Source: Thermoplasmatales archaeon (GTDB lineage: Archaea; Thermoplasmatota; Thermoplasmata; Thermoplasmatales; Thermoplasmataceae). Taken from it: 64,000 nt of DNA. Position numbers and translations under genes: made by a program. The notes under the pieces were generated by a model. It searched no databases and was not told the DNA's origin. It saw only the letters and a list, made by a program, of their open reading frames with translations. Positions 4,988-51,162 of this stretch are shown piece by piece (position 1 is the stretch's first letter; every line of letters starts with the position of its first letter). The stretch spans positions 1 through 64,000 of the forward strand of contig JAJSLM010000004.1 of the NCBI GenBank assembly GCA_026127925.1, written 5' to 3'.

Positions 4988-5676
4988 TAATCAATCACCT
5001 CTTTTTGACGAACCTCACGATTTTTCAGTAAGTCTGAATATCTGTTCTTAATGTAGCGAAGATGCTCATCGTCGATTACTTCACGTATGTGTCTTAATCT
5101 CGATTTTCTAGTTTGCACCATTATACGGGAACTGATCCTGTTTATTAATTCCACAGAGTCGCCGAGAAAATTCTCCCTTGCAACTACTGCATCAACATTT
5201 AAATTTTCTTTCGCTATGCCAACTATGCTGAATTTATATTTCTGGGAAGTTATTGAACCACCCATGATGAATTCATAATCGTTGTTAAAACCTACCTCAT
5301 TATTAGTAGTAGAGATCATATAATCAGTAAGGAGAGAAATTTCATATCCGCTATTCTTACACGGACCGTTTAAAAGTGAAAATACTGGCTTATCAAATGA
5401 AGCCAAGGAAAGAGAGAGAGTCCTCACAGATTCCAGCAGATTCAATGTCTCAGAATCATCTGCTTCTATCGAATTAACGAAATAATTGTTCTGACCAGTA
5501 AAAGCAACTGCTTTCACTTCGCTATCTAGAGAAGCCGATGTGAGTGCCAAAATAATTTCATCAATGGTGTTACGCGTCATGTTAAAATTTTTATTTGTCT
5601 TTATGACTATCACACCTAAATTATTCTCCCTCCAGAAGGAAATTCCGCTGAAACCATCTACATTCACATTATTCAT
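4987..5676 (-). CDS. divergent crotonase-fold (enoyl-CoA hydratase-like) protein
   Basis: A 229-residue soluble protein, shorter than the usual 255-265 residues. AVAFTGQNNYF followed by LNGPCKNSGYEISLLTDY matches the crotonase core (the A-x-x-x-G-x-x-x-G-G-G-E-L-A-L-x-C-D region) but the first oxyanion-hole segment, usually S-A-G-A-D, is VNSIEA, and the canonical catalytic Glu residues are not obvious. The start overlaps the end of cytochrome b by 8 nt and its stop overlaps the next start, placing it inside the Rieske-cytochrome b operon. Fatty-acid metabolism is therefore doubtful; a scaffold or protease-like accessory role is possible. Confidence 0.65.
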   Translation of the reverse strand: MNNVNVDGFSGISFWRENNLGVIVIKTNKNFNMTRNTIDEIILALTSASLDSEVKAVAFTGQNNYFVNSIEADDSETLNLLESVRTLSLSLASFDKPVFSLLNGPCKNSGYEISLLTDYMISTTNNEVGFNNDYEFIMGGSITSQKYKFSIVGIAKENLNVDAVVARENFLGDSVELINRISSRIMVQTRKSRLRHIREVIDDEHLRYIKNRYSDLLKNREVRQKEVID

Positions 5677-7378
5677 TGTAAAACGCCGCCCTATAAATTC
5701 TGACTATAATAGCTGCAATTATCATGAGGAACCCCATGCCTATGCCGAATTGCGCGTTTCCTACTATACCAACAATCGGTACTTGAAAAGTAAAGTATGC
5801 AATTACAATCGAACTGACTAACAGCAGACCGGATATAACCATTGCCAGATCCTTGTTCATACGATATTGATTGCGAGAAACCTTTTTCGGTGGTTCATCA
5901 AAGTGTTCAGATATCCTGGCCGATCTTGACGTGCCTACTGCTCCGAACATCATTACTCCTCCTGATGCAAGAGTAGCGAAAACGTTCATTCCTGAAGGAT
6001 CCGACAAGGCGGAAAAGAACCCCTGTCCGAACATATAAGCAGCAAAAATCATTACAAAAAGGAAGAGAAAGAATGAGGAGAATATCTTCTTTGGAGTTAT
6101 GTTAAATTTGCCTCTTTTGTACTGATTCGATAGTATGAAGATCCCTGATACGACGACCACGAAAGGAATGGCTAAGACTATAATTACCTCAGAAGTTGGG
6201 ATAGCTATGCCAGGTGCTAATGCCCCCCAAGCGGACATTAAGATTAGGTAGATGATCCCTAATATGCCAAATGAAGTTATCATTGGCTTTGACAGAGGGT
6301 GCAAATCATCGGTAGTGTCAATAAAGGGAAGCATTAAGAAATAAACCAGGGGTATTACTGCAAACATGAATGTAGCAGCCAATGGAGACAACGGACCGGC
6401 TAAGCTAAAAAACTGAAAATCGACAGCTTTGTACACGAATAAAAGGAACCATGGAGGGTACGGTGGGACAAATGCCGCCAAAGGACTTGATGACGGGACC
6501 TGAGGAAATGGGGAAAACAAAGTGGGGACGTTTCCCATTAATGCGAGTATTGAGGGTATGATTATTACAAAAGCGAACGTGAAGAGCGCTATCTGAATTA
6601 TAAACGCCATATTGTATGGATACCATTTCTTGTACCATGGCTTCTCTGTGTCCACAGATGGGGCCTTATAGTTAGAATCTCTGTGTCTGGGCATCATACC
6701 GTTTGCTTCAGCCAGCCAGAAATGAAGGCCGAATATGGCAAAGATACCAACAACCAGAATTATATGCCAAGCCAGCATGTGCTGGAATAAACTTAAACTA
6801 GTGCCATTTCCAAAAAAGATAGAATCCAGGTATTTCCCAATGAAAGGAACTGCACCTGCTATTCCACGTCCAACATCCGTTGCGTCTGTGGCAAGAACAT
6901 CATCAACCATTGAATATCCAAAATACCCTACTCCAACGGTTGTAGCGAGAAGACCAACACCACTCAACCATTGAAGCTGTCTAGGTTTTTTATATGCTCC
7001 AAAGAAGTAATTTCGGAACATATGTATGTAAATCAAGAAAATCATCGCGTAAGCACCGTAGAGATGCGTGGTTAACATAAGGGAACCAAACGGTACTGTG
7101 TTTATTACTGCCTCAGTTGAGGCGTAGGGATCAGCAGGATTGTAGTATATCAGCAACAGTAACCCAGATATCACTTGATAGACGAACACAATAGAGATGA
7201 TCGCACCAGTCCAGTACCATATCGACCCCCTTTTCCTCATATAATCGGGTACAGTCTTCAATGGCAAATCGTCTATATGCATAGCATCTGGACCCAAAAT
7301 GGCTCCCTTCTGCGGCGGTTTAAAAAGCTTTGGTATCTGAAACTTTCCAGGTTTCTGCCTTTGGTCTTCTTTTTCCAT
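5669..7378 (-). CDS. cytochrome b of a bc-type quinol-oxidising complex
   Basis: A 569-residue polytopic membrane protein with the fused b6/subunit IV layout of cytochrome b. Four axial haem ligands are visible as two His pairs with 13 residues between: THLYGAYAMIFLIYIH in helix B and WHIILVVGIFAIFGLH in helix D. After helix D comes a loop and then helices E-H and about four further hydrophobic segments, longer than mitochondrial cytochrome b (about 380). The Qo-site motif normally PEWY reads PPWF, so the conserved Glu is missing. It lies 17 nt downstream of the Rieske gene and is followed by two overlapping genes. It should oxidise menaquinol-type quinones with the Rieske protein; no cytochrome c1 gene is present. 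Confidence 0.9.
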   Translation of the reverse strand: MEKEDQRQKPGKFQIPKLFKPPQKGAILGPDAMHIDDLPLKTVPDYMRKRGSIWYWTGAIISIVFVYQVISGLLLLIYYNPADPYASTEAVINTVPFGSLMLTTHLYGAYAMIFLIYIHMFRNYFFGAYKKPRQLQWLSGVGLLATTVGVGYFGYSMVDDVLATDATDVGRGIAGAVPFIGKYLDSIFFGNGTSLSLFQHMLAWHIILVVGIFAIFGLHFWLAEANGMMPRHRDSNYKAPSVDTEKPWYKKWYPYNMAFIIQIALFTFAFVIIIPSILALMGNVPTLFSPFPQVPSSSPLAAFVPPYPPWFLLFVYKAVDFQFFSLAGPLSPLAATFMFAVIPLVYFLMLPFIDTTDDLHPLSKPMITSFGILGIIYLILMSAWGALAPGIAIPTSEVIIVLAIPFVVVVSGIFILSNQYKRGKFNITPKKIFSSFFLFLFVMIFAAYMFGQGFFSALSDPSGMNVFATLASGGVMMFGAVGTSRSARISEHFDEPPKKVSRNQYRMNKDLAMVISGLLLVSSIVIAYFTFQVPIVGIVGNAQFGIGMGFLMIIAAIIVRIYRAAFYNE

Positions 7379-7395: not shown

Positions 7396-8136
7396 TTAAA
7401 CTGCTACCTCTCCAACACCTGTTGTTGTGGTTCCGGTTGGGAATGGTGTCCCCCCAGAAAGATCGTTTGGTTTACTGTAGATTGTTGGACCAGTCATCAT
7501 CTTAACTTTATAGATATCAGTTAAGGCATCATAATCAAGAATTACATTAGGAAGAGGCTTTTGTGTTGGTCCCGTAATAACTCCCGCACCGTGCAATGGA
7601 TCATACGTACTACCATGACAGCTGCAGTGAATATATCCGGTCTCGTTGCTTAAAGTAGGATGTCCAGGAATCGACGCTCCTCCAGGATAATAGTGGATAA
7701 TTGGCACAATGCACCCCAAATGCTCACATATAGCACTAAATGATATGACAGATTTAAACGGTCCAACACCGGGTGGAGACTTAAACTTTGTTCCTGTAGC
7801 GGGGATTAACACGTCGCTTGGAAGAACTGTAACATCTTGTCCTGATTTATTCCTAAGGCGAATCAGAAAGTTTGGATCATTCTGAAGAGGGTAATAGAAA
7901 ACGTAGGCTATTGAGCTATTGTTTTCAAGATCGGCCGTATGAACTGGTTGATTAGTCGAGCTGTTAACAAGGGTCATCGTTGGAAATGAAGTTAAGCCTG
8001 ACCGAGGTGCAATCACATTTCCAAGAACACCCCTAACAACACTAGCCGCAGCTACGCCAGCTGACAATACAATCATTGCCTTGAGGAAATTCCGTCTTCC
8101 CTTGTCAACTGAATCATCATCCATGAAATTCCCCAT
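7396..8136 (-). CDS. Rieske iron-sulfur protein with twin-arginine signal
   Basis: Both Rieske boxes are present: CEHLGC (C-x-H-x-G-C) and CSCHGS, separated by about 28 residues, somewhat longer than usual and rich in Gly/Pro/His. The N-terminus has a Tat-type signal, GRRNFLKAMIVLSAGVAAA, which also anchors the protein, so the [2Fe-2S] domain faces outside. Starts at 8166, 8136 and 8124 are in frame; the TATA-like boxes at about 8173-8180 and 8146-8152 make the 8166 codon too far upstream, so 8136 or 8124 is preferred. First gene of the four-gene respiratory operon, divergent from a ribbon-helix-helix regulator. Confidence 0.9.
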   Translation of the reverse strand: MGNFMDDDSVDKGRRNFLKAMIVLSAGVAAASVVRGVLGNVIAPRSGLTSFPTMTLVNSSTNQPVHTADLENNSSIAYVFYYPLQNDPNFLIRLRNKSGQDVTVLPSDVLIPATGTKFKSPPGVGPFKSVISFSAICEHLGCIVPIIHYYPGGASIPGHPTLSNETGYIHCSCHGSTYDPLHGAGVITGPTQKPLPNVILDYDALTDIYKVKMMTGPTIYSKPNDLSGGTPFPTGTTTTGVGEVAV

Positions 8137-8193
8137 GCGATGACCATATAAGTTTTTTTGGTGCATGAATAAGCTAAATACCCGTTATTCCAA

Positions 8194-8276
8194 ATTTCAT
8201 GAAATAGGTCATGCTTGAAAGATTTACAAGATTACAATATTGAAAAGATTTCTGGAAATCATGAAATCTAAATACT
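8194..8276. promoter_or_regulatory. divergent promoter with two ATTTC-N2-GAAAT operator-like sites
   Basis: Between the Rieske operon and the RHH gene are two inverted repeats of the same half-site: ATTTC-AT-GAAAT (8194-8205) and ATTTC-TG-GAAAT (8248-8259), with an additional GAAAT half-site at 8263-8267. The second lies just upstream of a TATA-like CTAAATACT (8268-8276) whose predicted transcription start coincides with the ATG at 8296. The first lies just upstream of a minus-strand TATTTAGC (8173-8180). Placement over the BRE/TATA region of both promoters fits regulation of both units, plausibly by the adjacent RHH protein. Confidence 0.55.
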
Positions 8277-8736: not shown

Positions 8737-8846
8737 ATATCTTTAAATTCTACACCTACGTCTCCTTAATCTCAAATGAGAAGAATACCGGAAATCGCGA
8801 CATATGAGTAAAGGCTATAATCTTCTCTTGAGATATCCCTGGAGAC

Positions 8847-8919
8847 GGGCTCGTAGTCTAGTGGTCATGATACCGCCCTTACAAGGCGGTGGTCACCGGT
8901 TCAAATCCGGTCGAGCCCA
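8847..8919 (+). tRNA. tRNA-Val (anticodon TAC)
   Basis: A full cloverleaf is visible: acceptor GGGCTCG/CGAGCCC, anticodon arm CCGCC-CTTACAA-GGCGG with anticodon TAC, T-arm ACCGG-TTCAAAT-CCGGT with the normal TTC of the T-loop, discriminator A. CCA is not encoded and there is no intron. Confidence 0.95.
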
Positions 8920-9373: not shown

Positions 9374-9823
9374 TTACAATAACTTTTCCATCCTGTAAGC
9401 TCCCCTTGAACCGCGGAAAACCTCTGTGTAATAATGATGCATATGCTCTACCGTTTTGTACCCATGTTTAACGTAAAAACTTATAGCTTCTGAGTTTGTA
9501 CTTCGGACTTCCAGAACTGAAATACCAAAACCTCTTTTCCTCATTTCATTCTCGATGCCAAGGAGCAGTTTACTTCCTATTCCGAATCTGTGAAAATCTG
9601 GATCAACTGCAATAGTTTCTATGTCAGCCTTTTTTTCATCTAGGGGAAAAGCAACAACGTATCCTACAATCTTTTTATTTTCTTCAGCAACAATGTTAAA
9701 TGCTTTAGGACTATTGAAAATCCTTTTTAACATACGCTTTGTATATGGACCAACTTCGAATGCTTTCTTTTCTAGCATACATATTAGTTCTAGATCTGAA
9801 GGATCATATCTTCTCAGAATCAA
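9374..9823 (-). CDS. rimI: RimI/Ard1-type protein N-acetyltransferase (GNAT)
   Basis: A 149-residue single-domain GNAT. IVGYVVAFPL, ADIETIAVDPDFHRFGIGSKLL (the acetyl-CoA pyrophosphate loop, Q/R-x-x-G-x-G/A variant RFGIGS), VLEVRSTNSEAISFYVKHGYK and a C-terminal YRMEKLL match the archaeal RimI/Ard1 N-terminal acetyltransferases, which acetylate Ser/Ala/Thr/Met N-termini. Translation starts at TTG (9821-9823), consistent with leaderless initiation from a minus-strand TTAAATTA about 25 nt upstream. It shares its promoter region with the riboflavin operon. Confidence 0.8.
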   Translation of the reverse strand: MILRRYDPSDLELICMLEKKAFEVGPYTKRMLKRIFNSPKAFNIVAEENKKIVGYVVAFPLDEKKADIETIAVDPDFHRFGIGSKLLLGIENEMRKRGFGISVLEVRSTNSEAISFYVKHGYKTVEHMHHYYTEVFRGSRGAYRMEKLL

Positions 9824-51088: not shown

Positions 51089-51162
51089 GCCCGAGTGGGG
51101 TAATCTGGATATCCTAGGGGCCTGCGGAGCCTCAGATTCGGGTTCGAATCCCGGCTCGGGCG
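51089..51162 (+). tRNA. tRNA-Arg (anticodon GCG)
   Basis: Acceptor GCCCGAG pairs with CTCGGGC, discriminator G. Anticodon arm GGGGC-CTGCGGA-GCCTC gives anticodon GCG, reading CGC/CGT. The T-arm TCGGG-TTCGAAT-CCCGG is normal, with U55. No intron. Confidence 0.93.

Follow-up and report, generated by a model that had tools for sequence, protein, structure and literature searches.

A tandem array of 8-bp boxes at the RHH-solenoid protein gene of the Thermoplasmatales: a probable autoregulatory operator

The window analysed here, a stretch of 64,000 nucleotides from a Thermoplasmatales archaeon, carries the gene of an RHH-solenoid protein and, diverging from it, a Rieske-cytochrome b operon (Table 1). 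A preliminary description had pointed to two ATTTC-N2-GAAAT palindromes between them, each placed next to the BRE/TATA of one of the divergent units, and to a further half-site behind the second; these were read as a respiratory regulatory switch in which one RHH regulator serves both its own promoter and that of the bc complex. The divergent operon is present, and so are both palindromes, ATTTCATGAAAT and ATTTCTGGAAAT (the latter at 8248-8259), with centres 54 bp apart. On the RHH side, the three-box array directly abuts a TATA-like sequence, TAAATACT, whose counterpart in relatives is TTATATAC, situated 20–27 bp before the ATG; it probably serves the RHH gene as its TATA box. The boxes of the array have the form G-WWWW-C and an 8-bp period, and GAWWTCNNGAWWTCNNGAWWTC, searched with zero mismatches, matches the genome of this organism only there. 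The second palindrome is thus where it was said to be, beside a probable TATA box, and the third half-site (GAAAT, 8263-8267) does exist; the latter is not a separate element, since it and ATTTCTGGAAAT are parts of one three-box array, and the ATTTC-N2-GAAAT motif is simply the junction of two adjoining boxes. The first palindrome, however, is separated by about 50 bp from the TATA box conserved in the Rieske operon. That TATA, ACTTATA, precedes the conserved Rieske ATG by 28–31 bp in each of the 11 divergent relatives, and in the window it precedes position 8124 by 29 bp. The upstream ATG at 8166 would precede this TATA and is an unlikely start; translation probably begins at 8124.

Table 1. 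Genes and sequence elements of the divergent region, in window coordinates
Feature	Position	Strand	Remarks
Cytochrome b, SoxC-like	5669..7378	-	Pfam PF13631/PF00033; NCBIfam cyt_b_SoxC below cut-off
Rieske iron-sulphur protein, SoxL2-like	7396..8124	-	Pfam PF00355; NCBIfam SoxL2 below cut-off
Conserved Rieske-operon TATA	8147..8153	-	ACTTATA on minus strand
Perfect 12-bp palindrome	8194..8205		ATTTCATGAAAT; not conserved
Operator array (putative), three 8-bp boxes	8247..8268	+	GATTTC-TG-GAAATC-AT-GAAATC
Box of array	8247-8252		GATTTC
Box of array	8255-8260		GAAATC
Box of array	8263-8268		GAAATC
Probable TATA box of RHH gene	8269..8276	+	TAAATACT; -25 slot of box lattice
RHH-solenoid protein gene, 146 aa	8296..8736	+	Orthologues, RHH-like N-terminus, solenoid C-terminus

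The adjacent gene had been described as RHH-type, and this agrees with our analysis. Its product opens with a conserved strand, X-[IV]-S-[VI]-K-G, followed in the structural model by helices at residues 18-31 and 35-60, i.e. with the alternating polar strand and two helices that make up the plan of the RHH (MetJ/Arc/CopG) superfamily. The strand itself is unresolved in the monomer model, as expected because the RHH strand forms a dimer sheet. Neither the window protein, compared with the RHH models of Pfam and NCBIfam, nor any of its 37 orthologues matched a curated RHH profile above the cut-off, and the best link to Pfam was that of a class-level homologue to FitA-like_RHH (PF22513; E = 7.6e-5, 23 bits, cut-off 27). 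The last 80 residues are confidently modelled as a beta/alpha solenoid (pLDDT 93.7). Searched as a profile against the PDB, this solenoid finds LRR chains (E = 4e-8), and Foldseek gave nothing significant with either the whole protein or the C-terminal domain searched separately, so that 'LRR-like' is used here as a description and not as a family claim. At threshold, the combination of an RHH domain with a small beta/alpha solenoid has no counterpart among curated families. The gene has its own promoter and, both in the window and in Ferroplasma-type loci, is followed by a protein gene of opposite orientation, which makes it a single-gene operon in the window; in Thermoplasma volcanium only 89 bp separate it from a following gene of the same orientation, and the single-gene operon is therefore not certain there.

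Relatives of the RHH gene were found in 73 of the 117 genomes of the order, with few exceptions one per genome, and the promoter periodicity was analysed upstream of 69 orthologues. The definition of the box was made after these upstream sequences had been viewed; a motif-free lag test of the stretch from -75 to -20 is independent of that definition. Self-identity in this test reached 0.413 at lag 8 and 0.417 at lag 16; the corresponding values for a control stretch were 0.24 and 0.26. Two boxes at a distance of exactly 8 bp are present at 50 of the 69 orthologue loci, representing 17 of 21 genera (0.14 loci in shuffles), and three boxes at 25 of the 69 (0 in shuffles); box-pair counts are close to zero at other lags except 16, the double of 8. 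Two clean boxes are absent from the scored stretch in 4 of the 21 genera. The boxes are placed at -57, -49, -41 and -33 from the RHH ATG and often at -17, the -25 slot being occupied by the TATA box. This array is retained at the RHH gene while the neighbouring genes change, including at RHH genes far from any Rieske gene, and the suggestion that the repeats beside the RHH gene look like its own operator is borne out by the recurrence of the lattice.

Several individual lineages deserve mention. In genus g6 (L071, L072 and L074) the boxes, identified by eye, are ACATGT-like with 9-bp spacing, and the TATA again lies in a skipped slot; in the same genus arginine replaces lysine in the recognition strand (K-to-R). 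The two changes together could represent a natural specificity switch and are worth testing. In Thermogymnomonas acidicola (L242 / L070) the RHH orthologue is broken up into two reading frames close to a homopolymeric G tract, which is either a sequencing error or a real frameshift. No full RHH orthologue was found in the closest genome, which belongs to the same genus (G088); its match to the window Rieske gene consists of the last 32 residues only (97% identical). The class-level homologues in families f9 and f10 (L273-L286) are likewise RHH-solenoid proteins but shorter, and some genomes have two of them; no array of the 8-bp-box kind is evident upstream of these genes.

A second association concerns the protein and its boxes. 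By analogy with known RHH strands, residues 10, 12 and 14 would face the DNA. Residue 10 is T where the boxes are GTxxAC and N or D where they are GAxxTC, in 55 of 59 loci. When placed on the tree, however, the two characters change 5 and 6 times with only 2–4 independent pairs; the covariation is not phylogenetically significant and we regard it as suggestive only.

The distribution of the motifs was analysed in the window and in genomes of the order. The pattern ATTTCNNGAAAT occurs in the 64-kb window only as the two palindromes (0.31 expected; 5 of 100 shuffles reach 2). The genome search proposed in the preliminary description gave 15 matches in the organism's own genome versus 7 for the pattern read backwards, and 10 of the 13 remaining sites are inside ORFs; the motif alone is therefore not a genome-wide regulatory site, and it was rejected as a regulon motif. 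The three-box pattern GWWWWCNNGWWWWCNNGWWWWC matched the RHH promoter in 27 of the 117 genomes, and its backward control gave 7 matches. There were 28 matches outside the RHH promoter; among the ten inspected, seven are inside ORFs, two are possibly intergenic (G113:C43:298 and G075:C15:1010) and one (G082:C40), located where a contig ends, duplicates the RHH promoter. The last of these (L122; G082:C40:8938) comprises promoter and gene start and adjoins a transposase-like ORF. A strict two-box search of the Ferroplasma acidarmanus genus and of the organism's own genome returned the RHH promoter, ORF-internal matches and one intergenic array. The latter (L299), in genome G066 about 300 bp from the start of contig G066:C24 and away from the RHH gene of that genome, has multiple boxes followed by TATATATG, with no clear ORF downstream on the contig. 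In 500 kb of the genome that we take to be that of T. volcanium (G101), the sole intergenic two-box site is the RHH promoter. Weaker operators or targets elsewhere could be missed by such pattern searches. The window itself holds a two-box-like sequence, GAATACCGGAAATC (8783-8796), downstream of the RHH stop and about 50 bp ahead of the tRNA-Val gene (8847-8919); it is the fourth-best box pair in the window (14.5 bits) and may be due to chance. The top-scoring pair (51099-51114) was discarded as it is inside a tRNA-Arg gene, a location which calls for caution in motif scans of this kind.

We considered whether a single RHH regulator might occupy the two palindromes, for instance by bridging them, and so tie expression of the Rieske-cytochrome b operon to its own. 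The palindromes have common half-sites 54 bp apart, the divergent linkage of the RHH and Rieske genes is kept in genera g1, g9, g12 and g17 (the only ones in which the two are neighbours), and ATTTCNNGAAAT is nominally improbable in the 122-bp stretch 8125-8246 (shuffle P ~0.0003, for a motif picked post hoc). The probability of any perfect 12-bp palindrome in that stretch is about 0.07. However, comparison with relatives, which the preliminary description had itself named as a refuting test, goes against this proposal: the Rieske-side palindrome has no counterpart in any of the 11 relatives that keep the divergent Rieske-cytochrome b neighbour and is thus confined to the window among the 12 divergent Rieske-RHH loci. 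It also falls out of step with the 8-bp lattice, since 54 bp amount to 6.75 boxes, does not have the outer G/C that is conserved in the boxes, and scores 0.35 bits as a box pair versus 17.4 for the array, with 457 window positions outscoring it. Eighteen further Rieske loci that do not adjoin an RHH gene (L187-L204) have no two-box site within 219 bp, and RHH genes far from Rieske genes retain their array. Coupling of the two promoters is consequently improbable, and the divergent operon is a neighbour in one genus group rather than a conserved target. Given that the Rieske-side palindrome is neither conserved nor scoring, and that the array follows the RHH gene and not the Rieske gene through the order, the respiratory switch and its link to the bc-complex promoter are not supported. 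The function of the first palindrome is doubtful; because the same half-sites would nominally be unlikely there by chance, a species-specific auxiliary site is possible, at long odds.

The run of boxes is kept at the RHH gene whatever gene adjoins it, so the protein most likely binds there and shuts off its own gene. We put the probability of this reading, MetJ-like repression of the RHH gene by its own product through tandem 8-bp boxes that would block the promoter, at roughly 0.8; the anatomy of the promoter and its conservation make autorepression through a met-box-like array a well-supported, if sequence-based, proposal. The scheme would be as follows: (i) RHH dimers would bind 8-bp pseudo-palindromic boxes, R-G-WWWW-C-Y, head to tail, (ii) adjoining dimers would touch and the row would extend into the BRE/TATA and (iii) access of TBP/TFB to the monocistronic, probably leaderless RHH promoter would be blocked. 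We infer all three of its premises: that the RHH protein is the binder, that binding represses and that the transcript is leaderless. Conservation of the array is also compatible with autoactivation, which would leave a similar footprint.

An operator for another, unlinked regulator that controls the RHH gene is a slightly poorer candidate than promoter coupling. It is allowed by the fact that the box was defined from sequence alone, but MetJ provides a precedent for an RHH operator built of tandem 8-bp boxes with dimer symmetry (as given by a reference in PMC3274233), the box type tracks the strand residue of the RHH protein itself, and no other promoters with recurrent arrays were found among the matches inspected in the box searches. 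A type II antitoxin, with an RHH N-terminus and a partner-binding C-terminus, that represses its own operon is highly improbable and was rejected: autoregulation is a feature of RHH antitoxins, GNAT toxins can be paired with such antitoxins (GNAT toxins are described in PMC9561280) and a GNAT gene is nearby (9374-9823), but no adjacent toxin partner is conserved across 38 loci, a tRNA gene intervenes in the window, the GNAT gene has the opposite orientation and does not recur next to the RHH gene in relatives, and the C-terminus is predicted to be a folded solenoid.

A further and weaker reading concerns the wider role of the protein. Because the searches yielded no recurrent second target, the RHH protein may belong to the chromatin-type proteins, being abundant and holding its own level constant. 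In genome G101 the HU gene is at 171 kb and the RHH orthologue (592854-593318) is approximately the 435th–447th gene after it, the count varying with the gene-calling threshold. The gene 25 places beyond the orthologue, counted by hand over plausible genes, encodes a 120-aa winged-helix protein. Two candidate NAPs of T. volcanium, BAB59768.1 and BAB59743.1, have been reported along with HU (BAB59303.1) (PMC7613761); by accession number, BAB59743 is HU+440 and BAB59768 is BAB59743+25. As both offsets fit, and assuming that accessions run in genome order, gene counting indicates that the RHH orthologue is probably BAB59743.1, a nucleoid-enriched candidate for which the text of PMC7613761 gives neither domain nor operator. 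The two would agree in DNA binding and in the single-gene operon, and high abundance and nucleoid enrichment are published for BAB59743.1, in a match made by gene order alone. The winged-helix gene (L327; T. volcanium 617864-618226) fits BAB59768.1 by the same counting; that protein is reported to come close to HU in abundance and to surpass it in nucleoid enrichment (PMC7613761). No obvious RHH-solenoid orthologue appears in the chromosome mass-spectrometry table of T. acidophilum (PMC7325993). Tentatively, and at less than even odds, we suggest that the RHH-solenoid protein is an abundant, hitherto unassigned chromatin protein of the histone-less Thermoplasmatales, that growth of its polymer along the 8-bp lattice into the promoter sets its level, and that strand residue and lattice sequence co-evolve between genera. 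Gene order would thus tie the protein to a published, uncharacterised nucleoid-enriched protein, and this bears on the organisation of DNA in archaea that lost histones.

Among known systems, MetJ of Escherichia coli is the closest in operator form: an RHH-type protein with tandem 8-bp palindromic boxes and its own gene among the targets. At least two tandem 8-bp pseudo-palindromic boxes are characteristic of that type, and the window has three. MetJ differs in its methionine regulon, its S-adenosylmethionine corepressor and the lack of a solenoid domain; here the box sequence is different, only the protein's own promoter was found as a recurrent target in the three-box and two-box searches, and these gave no indication of the control of methionine genes that marks the MetJ family proper. 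In archaeal viruses, RHH repressors form oligomers that grow toward the BRE/TATA and occlude the promoter (PMC5569661). SvtR, AvtR and F55 resemble the present system in repressing their own promoters in this manner (PMC5569661), F55 also in having tandem repeats. They differ in being viral, small and without a C-terminal solenoid, and their operators are unlike the window array and include those of other viral genes. The FitA-like and CopG RHH domains (PF22513, PF01402) share the strand-helix-helix plan, but the link is below the curated cut-off, and the window protein has neither a match nor a toxin partner. What had been suspected to be a respiratory switch becomes a testable autoregulatory module, with an operator that is conserved across an archaeal order, defined at the base level and nearly absent from the rest of the genomes. 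The type of control, RHH autorepression, is known; here it goes with an unassigned protein architecture and an order-wide operator.
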